A model generated the notes under the pieces. The model was not told where the DNA came from, searched no databases, and saw only the letters and a program-made list of their open reading frames with translations. From Cyanobacteria bacterium MAG CAR3_bin_5 (lineage in GTDB: Bacteria > Cyanobacteriota > Cyanobacteriia > PCC-6307 > Cyanobiaceae), in the NCBI GenBank assembly GCA_026709085.1, contig JAPOTR010000024.1, positions 1 through 64,000 on the forward strand: a DNA stretch of 64,000 nucleotides, in the 5' to 3' direction. Each line of letters opens with the position of its first letter. Positions within the stretch are counted from its first letter, which is position 1. The translations under genes were made by a program, and so were the position numbers. This document shows positions 10,760 through 18,377 of this stretch, piece by piece.

Positions 10760-12019
10760 TCAACATTGTCCTGACCGGGGCAATTTCCGTTCAACCCAGG
10801 CTTGCCAGCGGCGGCGCTCCCATTTGCCCTGGGCATTGGGGGCAAGCCGGGGGCAGTGGATCCATTGCTTCGGGCGCTCCGGCGGCGGACGGCGGGATAC
10901 GGCCTTGTCCAGCGCCGCCATGGATACGGTTCCCCGGTACAGGCCCACCAGCCGTTGGCCCCAGTGGACATCCTCCACACCCACCACCAGCACCGCCGCC
11001 AGACCGTCAAGACCCGCAAGGCCGGCTTCGATCACCTCGGGAAACACCGTCTCCCCACCACTGTTGATGGCCCCGTCCAGCCGGCCCAACACCTGCAAAC
11101 CCCGTCTCCCCAGTCGGACCCGATCCGTGGTGCGCCACCAACCGTTCCGCAAGGGCAGGGGCTGTAGTTCCCCGTCCACGAGAAAGCCGGGGGTGAGCAC
11201 CGGGGTGCGGATCTCCAGGACATCGGTTGCGCCGGGGGCCGCTGCACTGCGCAGCGCCACGTGGGACAGGGGCAGGCCGCAACTCTCCACACCGGCCAGG
11301 AACTGACGGGGATCAAGGGCGGTGACCATGGCGCCGGTCTCCGTGCTCCCGTAGCAGGGGGAGAGAGGGAGACCGGCGCGGCGCGCCTGTTGCCGCAGCG
11401 CCGGCGCCAGGGGGGCGCCACCCACCCAGCAGCAGGCCAGTTGTTGCAACCGGTCCACACCACCGGTCTCCCCCAGGAGCCGCTGCAACTGGGTGGGCAC
11501 CAGAGACAATCCCCACCCAGGCAGCAAGGGGCGTTGTCCCCTCTCCCGCCATTGGCGGCGGGGCAGGAAGCGGTGGGGAATGCCCAGGGCCCGGCTGCGC
11601 AGGGGGGGCATCAGGCCACTGACGTGGTGAAGCGGCAGGGGATTGGCGAGGCCGGACAACGGCAAAGGTTCCTGCCCGGCCCCACCGGCCGGCCAACCCA
11701 CCAGCGCCCGGGCCGCCTGCTGCAGGTGGTCCAGGGGTTGGAGACACCAGCGGCGCCGGCCCCGGCTTCCCCCACTACCCAGCACCACCGCAGCCCCGGA
11801 TCCCGTAGACAGGAGGGGGCGGGTATCCCCAGGGCCAAGGCGCTCCGCCCCCCGACCCTGGTGGCGCCAGCCGGGCCGCAGGGCCACCCGCAGCATGGCT
11901 TCTTCCTCCGGACGGCAGAGGCCCACAACGGCTTCCGAGGCCAGAAGGGTTTGCAGGCGTTGCCAGTCCGCAGCCGGTTCCGGGCCACAGACGAGAAGAT
12001 GGCGTTCCTGCTCCGCCAT
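10760..12019 (-). CDS. menE: o-succinylbenzoate--CoA ligase
   Basis: An adenylate-forming enzyme that converts o-succinylbenzoate to its CoA ester in phylloquinone (vitamin K1) synthesis, making the electron carrier of photosystem I. Visible ANL-superfamily motifs are the P-loop-like LLSTGSGAAVVLGSGG, SPCYGSTETGAMVT (A5 motif), WWRTTDRVRLGRRGLQVLGRLDGAINSGGE (A7/A8) and the C-terminal PNAQGKWERR with the catalytic Lys. The 419-residue length is short for the family, as is usual for picocyanobacterial MenE. menC ends 17 bases upstream. A GTG at 12028 is an alternative start. Confidence 0.85.
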   Translation of the reverse strand: MAEQERHLLVCGPEPAADWQRLQTLLASEAVVGLCRPEEEAMLRVALRPGWRHQGRGAERLGPGDTRPLLSTGSGAAVVLGSGGSRGRRRWCLQPLDHLQQAARALVGWPAGGAGQEPLPLSGLANPLPLHHVSGLMPPLRSRALGIPHRFLPRRQWRERGQRPLLPGWGLSLVPTQLQRLLGETGGVDRLQQLACCWVGGAPLAPALRQQARRAGLPLSPCYGSTETGAMVTALDPRQFLAGVESCGLPLSHVALRSAAAPGATDVLEIRTPVLTPGFLVDGELQPLPLRNGWWRTTDRVRLGRRGLQVLGRLDGAINSGGETVFPEVIEAGLAGLDGLAAVLVVGVEDVHWGQRLVGLYRGTVSMAALDKAVSRRPPPERPKQWIHCPRLAPNAQGKWERRRWQAWVERKLPRSGQC

Positions 12020-12036
12020 GGCCCCCACCCGACCCG

Positions 12037-13029
12037 TCAGGCCGTTGCCCCCAGGCCGGGGGCCGGGCTGCCCCCAACCGCCGCCAGCCTGGCCAGGTCA
12101 TGGACCATAGCCCGACCCAGGGGCCCTTCAAAACCGGTGGAAACGACACAGCGACCAGGCCAGGCCCGCAGGAGACCCGCCAGCCGGCGGGGATCCCCAA
12201 GCTGGGAGGGTTTGATCACCAGCAGCGGCCTGTTGTTGAGAGGCGCCCGGAGCAACTGCTCCACCTGATCCAACTGGGTGAGGGACTCGTCCAGGGCCAA
12301 CTGCACACCGGGGATGGGGGGATCGGACAGCAGCCGCTCCAGCAGTGGATCCGTCGGGGCCAACGGCTGCTCCAGCCAACGGATGCGGGGATCAGCAGCG
12401 GCCTCCAGCCAGGGGGCAAGCTCCGCGGCCTTCAGGCGGCCGTTGGCATCCAGGCGCAATTCACCCTCTACGGACGCCAGCCGGGACAACAACGCCGCCA
12501 GCAGCGGTTGCTCCTGACGCCAGGGGAGGGCGCCGATTTTCCACTTCCAGCAGCGCCAGCCCCGGGCCAAGCCCCGCTCCAATGCCGTCAGCGCCGGGGG
12601 GCCGGCAGGCAGGATGCCCACCGTGGACCAGGCAGGCTCGGCAGCAGGGTTGCCGCCAGTGCCGTCGGGCCGGGGTGGGCCGTTGTGGCGGTGACGCTGT
12701 TGCTCCAGACGCCACAGGGCGCTGCCCAGGGCAAAGGCCGTACAGGGATGGCCACAGGCCATGTGGCGAAGCCAGTGGTCCAGGCGCCGGCGTCCCTCCG
12801 TGGCATCCAAAGGCTCCAACTGGCGCCGCAACGCCTCAAGGTGGCCCCCGTGGAGAGGATCGGCCCCGGATCGCCCCCGTTCGGGCAGGGGGCTGATTTC
12901 TCCTGCAGCCTGCCGCCCACGGGGATCTTCCAGCTCCACCTGCAACCCCTGATCACGCCCTTGTTCCCCGTCACGACGCCAGCGCCACAGGGAGAACGGC
13001 CGCCAGCACAAGCGCCAATGATCCGGCAT
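12037..13029 (-). CDS. menC: o-succinylbenzoate synthase
   Basis: An enolase-superfamily dehydratase that makes o-succinylbenzoate from SHCHC. The catalytic framework is present: K162 and K164 in CWKWKIG, metal ligands D194 (LRLDANGR), E220 (WLEQPL) and D247/E248 (LALDESL), and the second general acid/base K273 (VIKPSQLG). The product is 330 residues. It begins three bases after the menA stop and is followed closely by menE, so menA-menC-menE read as one operon. Confidence 0.9.
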   Translation of the reverse strand: MPDHWRLCWRPFSLWRWRRDGEQGRDQGLQVELEDPRGRQAAGEISPLPERGRSGADPLHGGHLEALRRQLEPLDATEGRRRLDHWLRHMACGHPCTAFALGSALWRLEQQRHRHNGPPRPDGTGGNPAAEPAWSTVGILPAGPPALTALERGLARGWRCWKWKIGALPWRQEQPLLAALLSRLASVEGELRLDANGRLKAAELAPWLEAAADPRIRWLEQPLAPTDPLLERLLSDPPIPGVQLALDESLTQLDQVEQLLRAPLNNRPLLVIKPSQLGDPRRLAGLLRAWPGRCVVSTGFEGPLGRAMVHDLARLAAVGGSPAPGLGATA

Positions 13030-13032
13030 CCC

Positions 13033-14064
13033 TCAACTGGCCACAGGCCACCGTCCTAGCGCCAATCCACCGGCAAACAACACACCGTTCACCATCTGGA
13101 AGCGCAGGGCCAGAAACTTGCCGTGACCGATGCGCTCCGGCTGGTTGTGGCGCCGCGCCAACAGGCGGATCAGGGGGAACGCCGCCGGCAGGCTGGCCAG
13201 CGCCACCAGGGTCGTGGCGGGCCACACCCTCCCCCAGGCAACGGGAACCACTTCCGCCAGCAGGACAAGGGCCACCAGGCAGGGCACAAGGGCGGCAGCC
13301 CGGGCCGTGCCCAGCCGTTGCACCGGTGAACGCTTGCCATGGGCAACGTCGTCCTCCACCTGGTGAAAGTGGGAGCAGAACAACACCAGGGTTGTGGCCA
13401 GGGCCGGGCCACAACCCAACTGACCGGCCAGGAACAGATCCAGTGGTCCGCCACCGCCACCCTCCAGCCCCGGGGCGGGGGCGCCGAGGCCCACCAGGGC
13501 CGCGGCGGTGGCCAGAGGACCGAACGCCAACCAGCAGAGGGGCTCCCCCAAGCCCTGATACCCCAGCCGGAAGGGAGGTCCCTGGTAGAGATAGCCACAG
13601 CAGCAGGCGGCCAGCACCAGCACCAGCGCCCACCAACTGCTGGCCATGGCCACCCGGGCCATGAGCACCAGACCCAGCAGACAACAGACCTGGGCGACAA
13701 CAAACACCATTCCGGGGGCGCCGGTAAGCTGGATCACGGAATGGGGCTTGCGAATATCGATTCCGGTTTGGGCGTCGAAGTAATCATTGCAAAGATTTTC
13801 CCACGCCAGCAGCAGCACGGCGGCCAGCAGGAAGACAACCAACTGCTGGAGTTGCAGACGCCATGCGGCGCGACCGGGGCCCAGCAGCCAGCCAGCGGCC
13901 ACAAGGGCCGGCATCACGGCCACCCCGTACATGGGCCATTTCACGGCAGCCCACCAGAGACGGGGCCGTTTTTCTGGCGCGTCCTTGGGGCTCAAGGGCT
14001 TCCGGGCATGGCGTCCATGGATAAATTGTACAATCCAGCGGGACCATTCATTTCTGATCCCCAT
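13033..14064 (-). CDS. menA: 1,4-dihydroxy-2-naphthoate phytyltransferase
   Basis: A UbiA-family membrane prenyltransferase that attaches the phytyl chain to DHNA in phylloquinone synthesis. The first Asp-rich motif is ENLCNDYFDAQTGID, and the second lies in FCSHFHQVEDDVAHGKRS. About eight to nine hydrophobic segments are spread over 343 residues. The ATG at 14064 gives an N-terminus MGIRNEWSRW; it lies only 16 bases from the divergent menF start, so a start further inside is possible. Confidence 0.9.
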   Translation of the reverse strand: MGIRNEWSRWIVQFIHGRHARKPLSPKDAPEKRPRLWWAAVKWPMYGVAVMPALVAAGWLLGPGRAAWRLQLQQLVVFLLAAVLLLAWENLCNDYFDAQTGIDIRKPHSVIQLTGAPGMVFVVAQVCCLLGLVLMARVAMASSWWALVLVLAACCCGYLYQGPPFRLGYQGLGEPLCWLAFGPLATAAALVGLGAPAPGLEGGGGGPLDLFLAGQLGCGPALATTLVLFCSHFHQVEDDVAHGKRSPVQRLGTARAAALVPCLVALVLLAEVVPVAWGRVWPATTLVALASLPAAFPLIRLLARRHNQPERIGHGKFLALRFQMVNGVLFAGGLALGRWPVAS

Positions 14065-14080
14065 TCCCCGGTTTGCCGCC

Positions 14081-15454
14081 ATGTCCTTCCGGAGCCTACT
14101 GACCATGGCCCAGGAGGGGGCCCAGCGCCTGGGCGAGGAGGGAGTGCTCTGTCTTGGCGTACCCATTGCACCGCTGGATCCCCTGCCGGCCGTGCCCCGG
14201 TTGTCCCAGGGGAACGACTTCACCTGGATCTGGGATGGATGGCCGGGGTTGACGTTGGCGGCCACAGGGGTGGAGCAGAGCCTGGAGTTGCGGGGACCAC
14301 GGCGGTTTCCCCTGGCCCAGCGCTTTATCGAGACGAGCCTGAATCGGCTGATCTGTCCCCATGGAACCGGACGAGCCGTGCAACGGCCACGGCTGGTGCT
14401 GGCCTTCAGTTTTTTCGGTCACGCCGACGGGGACGGAGTCCCGGGGGTGACCATCGTGCTGCCCCGCTGGCAATTGGGGCGACAGGGCCGTCACTGCTGG
14501 CTCCTCCATCAGCGCAGCCTCGGCGGGACCGTCACGGCCCGATCCATGGCGGAAGCCCTCTGGGAGCAGGCGCAGGCCCTGGGGCAATCCCCGCCGCCAC
14601 CCCTTTGTCTGCCCAGGCTGGTGGCCAGCAGTGACTCCTGGCACCAGCCCTTCCAAAGCAGTGTGAAACAGGCTCTGGATCTGATCAACGAAGGTCGGTT
14701 GGGGAAATTGGTGCTGGCGGCCCAACAGGACCTGCTGTTGAGCAACCCCTTGAACCCCATTGACCTGCTCCGCAGCCTGCGACGCCATCAGCCCGGCAGT
14801 TGCCGTTTTCTCTGGCGCCCCGCCAATCGCCAGGGCGGCAACGCCGTGGTGGGGGCATCGCCGGAGCGGCTCCTGGAGTTGCGCTCGGGCCGCCTCCGCT
14901 GTGACGGCCTGGCGGGGACTGCGGGGGTCGGTGGGGACGGAGGGCAACAACTGCTGAGGTCCGGCAAGAACCGCCATGAGCACGAGTTGGTGGTCAACGC
15001 CATCGTTCAATCTCTACGCTCCCAGGGACTGGCCCCCCAGCGTCGCCCCTGTCCGCGCTTGGCGCGGCACGGGAATCTGATGCATCTCCATACCCTCATC
15101 CAGGCCGATGCCCAGGGGCATCGGGTGCTGGATCTGGCGGAGGCGCTCCATCCCACACCGGCAGTGGCCGGGTTGCCGCGGCGGGAAGCGCTGAGCTGGC
15201 TCCGCAGTCTGGAAAAGTTTCCCCGGGGATACTATGGCGCACCCCTCGGCTGGGTTGATTTTTGTCGGGATGCGGATCTACGGGTGGCCATCCGCTGTGG
15301 CCAACTGCAAGGGCAACACCTGAAGCTCACCGCCGGGGCCGGCATTGTCATGGGATCGTCTCCGGGGCGTGAGCAGGAAGAGGTGGAACTCAAACTTTCC
15401 GTGCTGCAACGGCAGTTCACCCTTACCCGTACTCTCCAACCCCTGCAGCGGTGA
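14081..15454 (+). CDS. menF: isochorismate synthase
   Basis: A chorismate-utilising enzyme making isochorismate, the first step of phylloquinone synthesis. The C-terminal catalytic domain shows KLVLAAQQDLLL, VVGASPERLLELRSGRL, CDGLAGTAGVGGDG, KNRHEHELVVNAI and the terminal GYYGAPLGWVD and LTAGAGIVMGSSPGREQEE. The product is 457 residues from ATG 14081; the frame upstream to 13787 is antisense to menA. It is divergent from menA-menC-menE, so all four men genes can be controlled from one tiny intergenic space. menD and menB are not in this window. Confidence 0.9.
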   Translation: MSFRSLLTMAQEGAQRLGEEGVLCLGVPIAPLDPLPAVPRLSQGNDFTWIWDGWPGLTLAATGVEQSLELRGPRRFPLAQRFIETSLNRLICPHGTGRAVQRPRLVLAFSFFGHADGDGVPGVTIVLPRWQLGRQGRHCWLLHQRSLGGTVTARSMAEALWEQAQALGQSPPPPLCLPRLVASSDSWHQPFQSSVKQALDLINEGRLGKLVLAAQQDLLLSNPLNPIDLLRSLRRHQPGSCRFLWRPANRQGGNAVVGASPERLLELRSGRLRCDGLAGTAGVGGDGGQQLLRSGKNRHEHELVVNAIVQSLRSQGLAPQRRPCPRLARHGNLMHLHTLIQADAQGHRVLDLAEALHPTPAVAGLPRREALSWLRSLEKFPRGYYGAPLGWVDFCRDADLRVAIRCGQLQGQHLKLTAGAGIVMGSSPGREQEEVELKLSVLQRQFTLTRTLQPLQR

Positions 15455-15475: not shown

Positions 15476-16663
15476 TCAGGTGCGAATCTGGACGGGCATC
15501 ACCAGGTAGGTGAACTGCACGTCCCCCCCCACCGGTCGCAGCACAACGGGATTGACGGGCTCGTTCAGTTGGAATTGCACCTCCGGCGCCGGGAGCACCT
15601 TGAGGCCGTCCAGCAGGTAGCGCACGTTGAAGGCCACGTCAATATCGGCCCCGTCTCCATCGATGAGGGGAACCGACTCATCCCCACGGCCCACGTCCTG
15701 CACTTCGGCGCAAATGCCCAGGTTTTGCTCGGCGGTGGCGACGGAAAGCTTCACCACGCTGTTCTGCTGATCCGCCAGGACCGCCACCCGCTCCAGGGCA
15801 GTGAGCAGGAGCACCCGATCAACGGTGAACGAGCGGCTGAACGCCTCGGGAACGAGTTGGTTGTATTTGGGATACACCCCGTCCAGGGTGCGGCTGGTGA
15901 CCACTTGATCCGCCCGGAGAAACACCACCTGCCCCTGGTCGTGATAGAGGTCGATGGTCTCCTCGCTGCGGGCCGCCAGGAGGTGCTCCAGCTCCCGCAG
16001 AGACCGTGCGGGAATCGTGACCGCAAAACCCTCGTCGGCCACACCGCTATTGGCATTGGCCCGGGTCAACACGGCAAGGCGGTGGCCGTCGGTGGCGGCA
16101 AACTCCAGACGGTCCGGGGACACCGCCAAATGAACACCCGTCAGGATCTGCTTGGCATCATCGGAACTGGTGGCAAAGAGGGTGCGGGCCAGGCCGTCCC
16201 GCAGGGCCGCCGCAGGCAAAGGGACCGCCACAGGACTCTGGGCCATGGGCAACTCCGGGAAGTCCTCCGCCGGCATCCCTCGGACGGTATACGCCCCCGT
16301 CCGCGCCGTCAGTTGGAACGACAGCCCTGGCCCCGCCTCATTATCGGCCTCATCATCGGCTGAATCCGGGCCGGGGCTGGTGGGGGACTGGAGCGATAAG
16401 GGGCTATCGGTGGCGAGACGGGAGACAATATCCCCCAGGAGCCGGGAGGGGAGGGTGATGGCGCCGGATTGCTCCACCGCGGCCTCGAACGTGGTCTGGA
16501 TACCGAGGCTCAGGTCAAAGCCGGTGAGGCTCACCTTGCCGGTTCCCTCATCAGCCGTGAGCAGCACGTTGGCCAACACCGGATGGGTGGGGCGGCTGGC
16601 CACAGCACGGCTGACGCACTGAAGGTTGCTGTTGAGGGCAGCCTGCGAGCAGGTCAGCTTCAT
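15476..16663 (-). CDS. dnaN: DNA polymerase III beta sliding clamp
   Basis: The ring-shaped processivity clamp of replicative polymerase, 395 residues. Features are MKLTCSQAALNSNLQCVSRAV at the start, RPTHPVLANVLL, GFDLSLGIQT, the central FATSSDDAKQILTGVHL and ATDGHRLAVL, and the C-terminal PVNPVVLRPVGGDVQFTYLVMPVQ. Residues about 90-125 hold a Pro/Asp-rich insertion (SPTSPGPDSADDEADNEAG) in the first domain. It faces away from the probable replication origin immediately upstream; in cyanobacteria oriC commonly lies next to dnaN. Confidence 0.95.
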   Translation of the reverse strand: MKLTCSQAALNSNLQCVSRAVASRPTHPVLANVLLTADEGTGKVSLTGFDLSLGIQTTFEAAVEQSGAITLPSRLLGDIVSRLATDSPLSLQSPTSPGPDSADDEADNEAGPGLSFQLTARTGAYTVRGMPAEDFPELPMAQSPVAVPLPAAALRDGLARTLFATSSDDAKQILTGVHLAVSPDRLEFAATDGHRLAVLTRANANSGVADEGFAVTIPARSLRELEHLLAARSEETIDLYHDQGQVVFLRADQVVTSRTLDGVYPKYNQLVPEAFSRSFTVDRVLLLTALERVAVLADQQNSVVKLSVATAEQNLGICAEVQDVGRGDESVPLIDGDGADIDVAFNVRYLLDGLKVLPAPEVQFQLNEPVNPVVLRPVGGDVQFTYLVMPVQIRT

Positions 16664-16800
16664 GGGGGGGCAAACGGGGATGACAGCAGGTTAGGGGAAG
16701 GATCCCGGCAAGTCCACCATCATGCCTGACGGCGCGGCCACTGGCAAGGATGGCATCCTTATTCCCCGTGATCCCCCCACGACGGATAAGAGAGATGAAA

Positions 16801-17099
16801 TCAATTAACAACCAACAGCCGTAGTAGGGGCTGTGGAAATTGTGGAAAACTCACCACATATCCCTTGGGAACAGGGCTTTGGCGCAAGATCAGGTGTGGA
16901 AAGCTTGTGGAAAGTCTGTGGAAAGCTTGTGGAAAGTTCAGCCTGCCCTCGGGTTCTTCCCCTCTTTCCTCAAGGCGGATCGTCCATTTTCCACAGACTT
17001 TCCACAAGCTTTCCACAGGTTTCTCCACCATGGAGCCAGAGTGTTCCGGCCCAGCTTTCCGCCTCATCCGTTTCACTCCACTCAACCCGTGCGTTTCCC
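16801..17099. other. probable chromosomal replication origin (oriC)
   Basis: Between divergent dnaN and the M16-like gene sit nine copies of the DnaA-box core TGTGGAAA/TTTCCACA. Six are in the TGTGGAAA orientation (starting at 16832, 16841, 16895, 16906, 16917, 16928) and three in the opposite orientation (16988, 16999, 17010). Two match the nine-base TTTTCCACA form (16841-16849 and 16987-16995). Within each main array the boxes repeat every 11 bp. An AT-rich patch (about 16790-16815) could be the unwinding element. Position next to dnaN agrees with known cyanobacterial origins. Confidence 0.85.
16895..17017. repeat. 30-bp perfect inverted repeat of phased DnaA boxes
   Basis: Bases 16895-16924 (three boxes joined by GCT and GTC spacers) recur as an exact reverse complement at 16988-17017. 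A fourth box (16928-16935) follows the left arm. The arms are separated by 63 bp. The 11-bp period puts successive boxes on the same helix face. Confidence 0.9.
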
Positions 17100-18377
17100 A
17101 TGCGTCTTGACCTGCACCACCGTCATCAGCGCGTAGAGCTGCTGGTTCAGCAGCGGCGCCATATGAGGGTGGTGGCCCTGTGCTGGTGGATTGCCGGGGG
17201 CAGCGCCGGGGATCCACCGGGGCAACGGGGACAGGCCCACCTGTTGGCCGGCGCCGTTCAGCGGGGCACAGTTCGTGAGGATGCCGTAGCTCTGGCGGAA
17301 GAGTTGGAGTCTCGCGGCGCCTATTTCGCGGCCGGCGCCCGGGAGGACGGGGTGGTGTTGTGTCTGGGCTGCATGGCTGCGGATGCGGCGCCTCTCCTGG
17401 ACAGGGTGCGGGAGATGGTCCAGACGCCGCGGCTGGCGCCCCGGGAGGTGCGGCGAGAGCAGCAGCTCACCCTGCAAGCCCTGGATCAACAACGGGAAGA
17501 TCCCCTGCAGCTTGCCCTGGGGGAGTTGCGCCGTCTGCTGTACGGCCATGGGGGATACGGCCACGCCCCCCTTGGCGCGAACAAAGCGGAGGTGGCGGCA
17601 CTGACCCCCAGCCACTTGCGCCAGGCCCATCAAGGCTGGGGAAGCAGCCCCATGGTCATTGCCGCGGCGGGCCGTCTGGATCAGGGCGCCACAGCCCACC
17701 TGACGGCCCTGGCGGAGGACCTGCCCCCCGGCCATGGCTCCACCCCCCCGCCACCACCCGCGGCCCTGCCCACCACGGCAGCCACCATGGCCTTCCATCC
17801 CCAGGACACGGAGCAGGTGGCGCTGCTCCTGGGGGCGGCCACCTGTGGACTCAATCACCAGGACCAAGCTGTCTTGCGCCTGCTGCAATGCCATCTCGGC
17901 GCCGGGATGAGCGCCCGGCTGCCCCAGGTGATCCGGGAAACCCACGGTCTGGCCTATGAGGTGGGGGCGTTGTTCCCTGTGCGTCGGCAGAGCGCCCCGT
18001 TCACTGTGTATCTCTCCACCAGCCGGGAGCGGGCCGCCCTGGCGCTGGAACTCCTGCTGGCGGAGTGGCGGCGGCTCCTGGAGACGCCCCTTCAGCCCGA
18101 GGAATTGGGTTTGGCCCGGGCCAAGTTGCAGGGGCGGGAGTTGGCGGCGTTGCAGACCAGCGGCCAGGTGGCGGAACGGCTGGCCCTGTTGCGGGGGTAC
18201 GGCATGGCTGCGGACGGGGCGGAACAGCAATTGGCCCGGTTGGCGCAGCGGGACGGGGCCGACTGTCAGCGGGTGGCGCGCCACTGGCTTGCCCAACCCC
18301 GTCTGGCGGTGGCGGGCCCCCAGGCCCTGGCGGCGCCCCTGGAGAACATCTGGTCTCAGAGGACGGACTCCACCTGA
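17100..18377 (+). CDS. M16-family peptidase-like protein, inactive type
   Basis: This 425-residue protein has the architecture of M16 (insulinase/pitrilysin) half-proteases: an N-terminal domain with GQAHLLAGAVQRGT, ESRGAYFAAGAREDGVVL, and a second domain with QVIRETHGLAYEVGALF. In active members the first motif is HFLEH; here it reads HLLAG, so the zinc ligand and catalytic Glu are absent. Cyanobacteria often pair an active and an inactive M16 subunit; the partner is not next to it. The ATG at 17100 starts just past the last DnaA box. The frame upstream runs through the origin and is not coding. Confidence 0.8.
   Translation: MRLDLHHRHQRVELLVQQRRHMRVVALCWWIAGGSAGDPPGQRGQAHLLAGAVQRGTVREDAVALAEELESRGAYFAAGAREDGVVLCLGCMAADAAPLLDRVREMVQTPRLAPREVRREQQLTLQALDQQREDPLQLALGELRRLLYGHGGYGHAPLGANKAEVAALTPSHLRQAHQGWGSSPMVIAAAGRLDQGATAHLTALAEDLPPGHGSTPPPPPAALPTTAATMAFHPQDTEQVALLLGAATCGLNHQDQAVLRLLQCHLGAGMSARLPQVIRETHGLAYEVGALFPVRRQSAPFTVYLSTSRERAALALELLLAEWRRLLETPLQPEELGLARAKLQGRELAALQTSGQVAERLALLRGYGMAADGAEQQLARLAQRDGADCQRVARHWLAQPRLAVAGPQALAAPLENIWSQRTDST

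Follow-up and report, generated by a model that had tools for sequence, protein, structure and literature searches.

The origins of the cyanobacteria Synechococcus elongatus PCC 7942, Anabaena PCC 7120 and Cyanothece ATCC 51142 lie next to dnaN and contain TTTTCCACA DnaA boxes and an AT-rich stretch, with dnaA not beside dnaN (PMC4674748, PMC7198777). The S. elongatus origin was mapped near dnaN (PMC7198777), and S. elongatus DnaA opens its own box-plus-trio substrate in vitro (PMC8287927). However, some cyanobacteria are independent of DnaA and use several origins (PMC7198777), which counts against the reading proposed below. The basal unwinding system (BUS) is composed of tandem boxes, a GC-rich region of about 4 bp, 3'-GAT-5' trios and an adjacent melting region (PMC8287927). 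In E. coli oriC, oppositely oriented arrays contain 9-mers 2 bp apart, which corresponds to an 11-bp pitch (PMC6070618, and Rozgaja 2011 cited there).

The locus analyzed here resembles all of these systems. It lies in a stretch of 64,000 nucleotides, referred to as the window, which is part of one 82-kb contig in a genome of 67 contigs and 2.37 Mb. The window dnaN is most similar to dnaN of Candidatus Synechococcus spongiarum and related MAGs, and the genome itself falls within the Candidatus Synechococcus spongiarum group of sponge-symbiont cyanobacteria. A cluster of TTTTCCACA-type DnaA boxes is located directly upstream of dnaN, with a counterpart at the orthologous place in relatives. On the sequence evidence, this region is very probably the chromosomal origin (oriC) of a Candidatus Synechococcus spongiarum-type cyanobacterium. 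The initial annotation had already proposed an oriC beside dnaN, and the proposal is supported by the position of dnaN, conservation in the genus, the anatomy of the unwinding module, an intact dnaA on another contig and the change of skew sign at the corresponding site of a complete family genome. The features of the region are as follows.

15476..16663, minus strand: dnaN, sliding clamp (DNA polymerase III beta); ORF with three DNA_pol3_beta Pfam domains (PF00712/PF02767/PF02768)
16785..16826, no strand: AT-rich, least stable stretch, the probable DNA unwinding element; nearest-neighbour stability minimum of the intergenic region
16819..16827, plus strand: DnaA-trios, CCGTAGTAG 5' to 3' on the plus strand, equal to 3'-GATGATGCC-5'; two canonical, the third degenerate
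16828..16831, no strand: GGGC spacer between trios and box, from the sequence
16832..16849, minus strand: tandem DnaA box pair, 9 bp apart (ATTTCCACA, TTTTCCACA), from the sequence
16850..16894, no strand: spacer that sets the conserved start-to-start distance at 54 bp, about five turns of the helix, from the sequence and the phylum comparison
16895..16936, minus strand: dnaN-proximal array of four co-directional DnaA boxes at 11-bp pitch, all CTTTCCACA, from the sequence
16937..16986, no strand: gap between the opposed arrays, from the sequence
16987..17017, plus strand: distal array of three opposed DnaA boxes at 11-bp pitch; arm of the perfect 30-bp inverted repeat, in lattice register
17100..18377, plus strand: peptidase M16-family gene (PF00675/PF05193), on the other side of the origin and transcribed away from it

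Since dnaN is read leftwards and the M16 gene rightwards, neither flanking gene is transcribed towards the arrays. Adjoining dnaN, positions 10760-15454 hold what resembles a quinone (phylloquinone) biosynthesis cluster, with genes for a UbiA prenyltransferase and a chorismate-binding enzyme plus additional ORFs. The start of the M16 gene is conserved in the close relative SH4 (L122 1501-1540 against window 17061-17100), but the origin is not beside it; in several other relatives a thrC-like coding sequence occupies the M16 side of the origin. The neighbor of the origin is rearranged in the window lineage. No origin was recovered from SH4, the closest relative, as its dnaN contig ends short of the origin and its M16 contig is without one.

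The nine TGTGGAAA boxes of the initial annotation are all present and perfect at the positions claimed, with starts at 16832, 16841, 16895, 16906, 16917 and 16928 on the plus strand and at 16988, 16999 and 17010 on the minus strand. These nine perfect TGTGGAAA/TTTCCACA boxes span 16832 to 17017, and no perfect box occurs outside this cluster in the 64-kb window. The box-start pitch is exactly 11 bp in both arrays, and 16895-16924 and 16988-17017 are 100% reverse complements over 30 nt, 63 nt apart, as had been described. First-order Markov simulation of the 436-bp intergenic region (20,000 runs) produced at most two boxes, against the nine observed. The cluster is the sole occurrence of phased box pairs in the window genome, and no other copies of the repeats were found there. 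The DnaA boxes sit on one helix face and make up two arrays of opposite orientation. The window differs from the three described cyanobacterial origins in its uniform arrays, which form a perfect 30-bp inverted repeat, and in having CTTTCCACA in 6 of 9 boxes. The comparison with E. coli differs in another way, as its arrayed sites are of low affinity whereas those of the window, judged by sequence only, are TTTTCCACA or CTTTCCACA, nearly all consensus or one step away.

Towards dnaN, boxes 16841 and 16832 are followed by four G/C bases, CTACTAC-GG and then the least stable intergenic DNA, whose weakest 40-mer starts at 16787 and ranks in the lowest 0.7% of the window for stability. The complement of CTACTAC, 3'-GATGATG-5', corresponds to DnaA-trios of the BUS type as defined in PMC8287927. 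The trios end at 16827 and the spacer (16828-16831) separates them from the box (16832-16840), a distance within the published 16 bp. Three consecutive 3'-NAN-5' trios are not found, the reading from the box side being 3'-GAT GAT GCC GAC AAC-5'; because GCC breaks the run after two canonical trios, as in much of the family, we call the module BUS-like and not a strict match to the published rule. It also differs from BUS in that the phased arrays reach beyond it. The AT-rich stretch annotated at about 16790-16815, outside the arrays, is real and corresponds to the stability minimum. It is part of the origin, as boxes 16832/16841, GGGC and TAGTAG form an unwinding module that the initial annotation had missed. 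A CTACGG element follows a box pair throughout the genus and in much of the family, including genera with drifted boxes (TTTTCCCCA among other forms); in other families the trio element is CTACTACTA. Upstream of dnaN in many family genera (L046-L083), boxes have drifted to TTTTCCCCA or TTTTCCACC and the trio core is retained.

In order to follow the layout beyond the window, origins of the genus were compared, in which dnaN orthologs were found in all 10 genomes. Eight relatives (L009-L014, L016, L028) contain the same parts in the same order before dnaN, namely an opposed distal array, a proximal array, a tandem pair and trios. The origins differ in spacer sequence and box number, and L014 has a degraded first box in its tandem pair. 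Across the nine genus origins, same-strand spacings between successive boxes cluster at 11-12, 20-23 and 32-33 bp (best periodicity R 0.88, which none of 5000 null draws reached), although related sequences such as these are not independent samples. In five genus origins other than that of the window, 53-54 bp separate the last box of the array from the tandem pair; in L011 and L016 the interval is a full turn longer, 65-66 bp. Two extra co-directional boxes are present in L028 as in the window. Both array arms of the window have the same spacer bases, which is not the case in the related origin L010; a recent copying of one arm onto the other is the probable cause.

The same core was searched for across the phylum in 373 genomes, using a pattern with fixed CCACA cores and a gap left free over 31 lengths. 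It matched 35 places in 34 genomes, a lower bound and not a census, since only intact cores can match and most of the window's family, like other genomes whose boxes are degenerate, escapes the pattern. The core span was 78-81 bp in 32 of 35 matches (79 bp, n=20; 78 bp, n=9; 80 bp, n=1; 81 bp, n=2), and it is 79 bp in the window. Among the three outliers (67, 70 and 71 bp), the 67-bp match resembles a genuine origin shortened by one turn, and those at 70 and 71 bp appear to be chance matches. A reversed control pattern gave no matches in the 373 genomes. The distance from array pair to tandem pair, 54 bp in the window, is 53-56 bp in 26 origins outside the genus, and the core geometry of 11 bp, 54 bp, 9 bp and trios recurs in other cyanobacteria. 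Many cyanobacteria share a spacing rule of one helical turn per site, in which two co-directional boxes 11 bp apart, of which 16895 and 16906 in the proximal array are the widely conserved pair, stand about 54 bp from a pair 9 bp apart. This second pair in turn abuts the GC spacer, the DnaA-trios and the unwinding region.

Additionally, the opposed boxes of 12 families, anchored on the core, fall on a common lattice with a period of 10.6 bp (R 0.83, reached by 0 of 2000 shuffles that moved each family independently). Since the anchoring loci were picked for the 11-bp pair and not for opposed boxes, the lattice is not produced by the way they were selected; these loci were recognized by core and trios and not by an adjacent dnaN. 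The distal boxes of the window, at -92, -103 and -114, are 0.8, 0.4 and 0.0 bp off the lattice. Other families usually have, 18-19 bp ahead of the 11-bp pair, an opposed box (for example L088, L128 and L129) that is lacking in the window, where two more co-directional boxes occupy its place. These extra boxes, the homogenized arrays with their perfect 30-bp repeat and the strictly uniform 11-bp pitch are specific to the window, and to that extent the description of the locus as "unusually tidy for a bacterial origin" was apt. However, phased opposed arrays on one lattice are common to many cyanobacterial families, and E. coli oriC is comparable, so the tidiness of the window is a strict form of a helical scaffold held in common.

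These features suggest a mechanism in which DnaA would bind the strong boxes co-operatively, the 11-bp pitch stacking neighboring protomers as a filament on one DNA face. The proximal array, held 54 bp (five turns) from the tandem pair that itself lies beside the GC spacer and trios, would together with this pair hand DnaA to the single-stranded trios at about 16827 and leftwards. DnaA on the trios would then melt roughly 16785-16826 for helicase loading. We infer that the distal opposed array may carry a second DnaA filament facing the first, either stabilizing the complex or serving a second helicase. The perfect 30-bp repeat would reflect recent homogenization of one array by the other, probably tolerated because phase and not spacer sequence matters.

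The arrays might instead act mainly as a DnaA titration or regulatory cluster, either datA-like or controlling dnaN transcription, with initiation elsewhere or at multiple sites. DnaA boxes upstream of dnaN could indeed regulate it, multiple-origin initiation occurs in some cyanobacteria (PMC7198777), and GC skew within the window is weak with no clear inflection on this draft contig. As an origin locator, the skew of the window and of two genus contigs was discarded because the signal is too weak. In the complete family genome G032, however, skew changes sign at the equivalent site upstream of dnaN, sampled 20-kb stretches having negative skew on one side (10 kb to 0.8 Mb) and positive skew on the other (10 kb to 1.2 Mb). 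With the pair, GC spacer, trios and weak DNA of the unwinding module present and conserved in place, and no second phased cluster in the genome, we consider this explanation improbable.

A vestigial origin, in a symbiont that like some other cyanobacteria has passed beyond reliance on DnaA, is less probable still. The loss of DnaA dependence has precedents (PMC7198777) and the DnaA recognition helix is altered in the genus, but the dnaA reading frame is open in 10 of 10 genus genomes; in the window genome dnaA lies on another contig as an intact, full-length ORF with domain IV. The boxes are also more numerous and nearer to consensus than in most family members, the opposite of decay. Long, perfect inverted repeats typically mark element ends or sites for other regulators, which could point to a non-DnaA factor or a mobile-element remnant. 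This we regard as the least probable explanation, as every unit either matches the known cyanobacterial DnaA box TTTTCCACA or differs from it by one step, the lattice is conserved across many families and the repeat is single copy in the genome. A chromosomal origin driven by DnaA, well supported by comparison, is the reading we retain.

The altered recognition helix was examined together with the boxes. Outside the genus, the helix reads FGGKDH[ST]TV in 22 of 22 motifs recovered from 30 family loci. Within it, G001 and G005 retain GGKDH, the window genome, SH4, G002 and G008 have FGRKDH, and G003, G004, G006 and G007 have FGGKNH; the latter two forms are each limited to one clade in a DnaA tree built without domain IV. 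Arginine at the first changed site is also present in solved DnaA sequences (chains 1l8q and 2hcb). Boxes starting with C make up 13 of 28 in the FGRKDH group and 2 of 56 elsewhere, and G at box position 5 is found in 9 of 35 boxes of the FGGKNH group and 0 of 49 elsewhere, although 7 of these 9 come from one genome (L016) and each helix or box change is one tree event, so that Fisher values overstate the evidence. The L016 origin (G007) carries seven TTTTGCACA boxes in place of TTTTCCACA, and L012 and L013 have single position-5 G boxes; all three genomes encode DnaA with FGGKNH and not FGGKDH. Position 5 of the box matters for H. pylori DnaA and not for E. coli DnaA (PMC5043019).

Genome-wide, TTTTCCACA occurs 5 times in G007 and 17-38 times in other genomes. 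A global box shift judged by genome-wide TTTTGCACA and TTTTCCACA counts was set aside, being suggestive only in G007 with numbers that are too small. In L028 (G001), the most basal genus genome, many array boxes are TTATCCACA, an E. coli-like form. G021 is the only one of 41 family genomes without a Bac_DnaA_C match, which could be an assembly gap or DnaA loss, and has one TTTTCCACA box upstream of dnaN.

Box sequence may drift together with recognition-helix substitutions in the genus, which we offer as a lead only; array homogenization alone could also spread a base. A tentative reading, which we hold with some doubt, combines one rigid helical scaffold common to cyanobacterial origins, a 10.6-bp lattice fixed to the unwinding module with mostly whole-turn length changes, with a natural re-specification of the initiator in the sponge-symbiont genus, giving FGRKDH with CTTTCCACA in the window lineage and FGGKNH with TTTTGCACA in its sister lineage. 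Our literature search, which was incomplete and had most subscription journals outside its reach, found no account of cyanobacterial box phasing or DnaA D433N and no earlier description of the shared scaffold or of DnaA/box co-change.

Bacterial origins seem too varied to be read by rule. A phase-locked layout common to many cyanobacterial families would provide a ruler for locating origins in draft genomes, and a fixed layout predicts that half-turn and full-turn insertions act differently. The parts that merit further attention are the common scaffold and a possible co-change of the boxes with DnaA, and this symbiont genus may offer a natural experiment on the joint change of an initiator and its sites.
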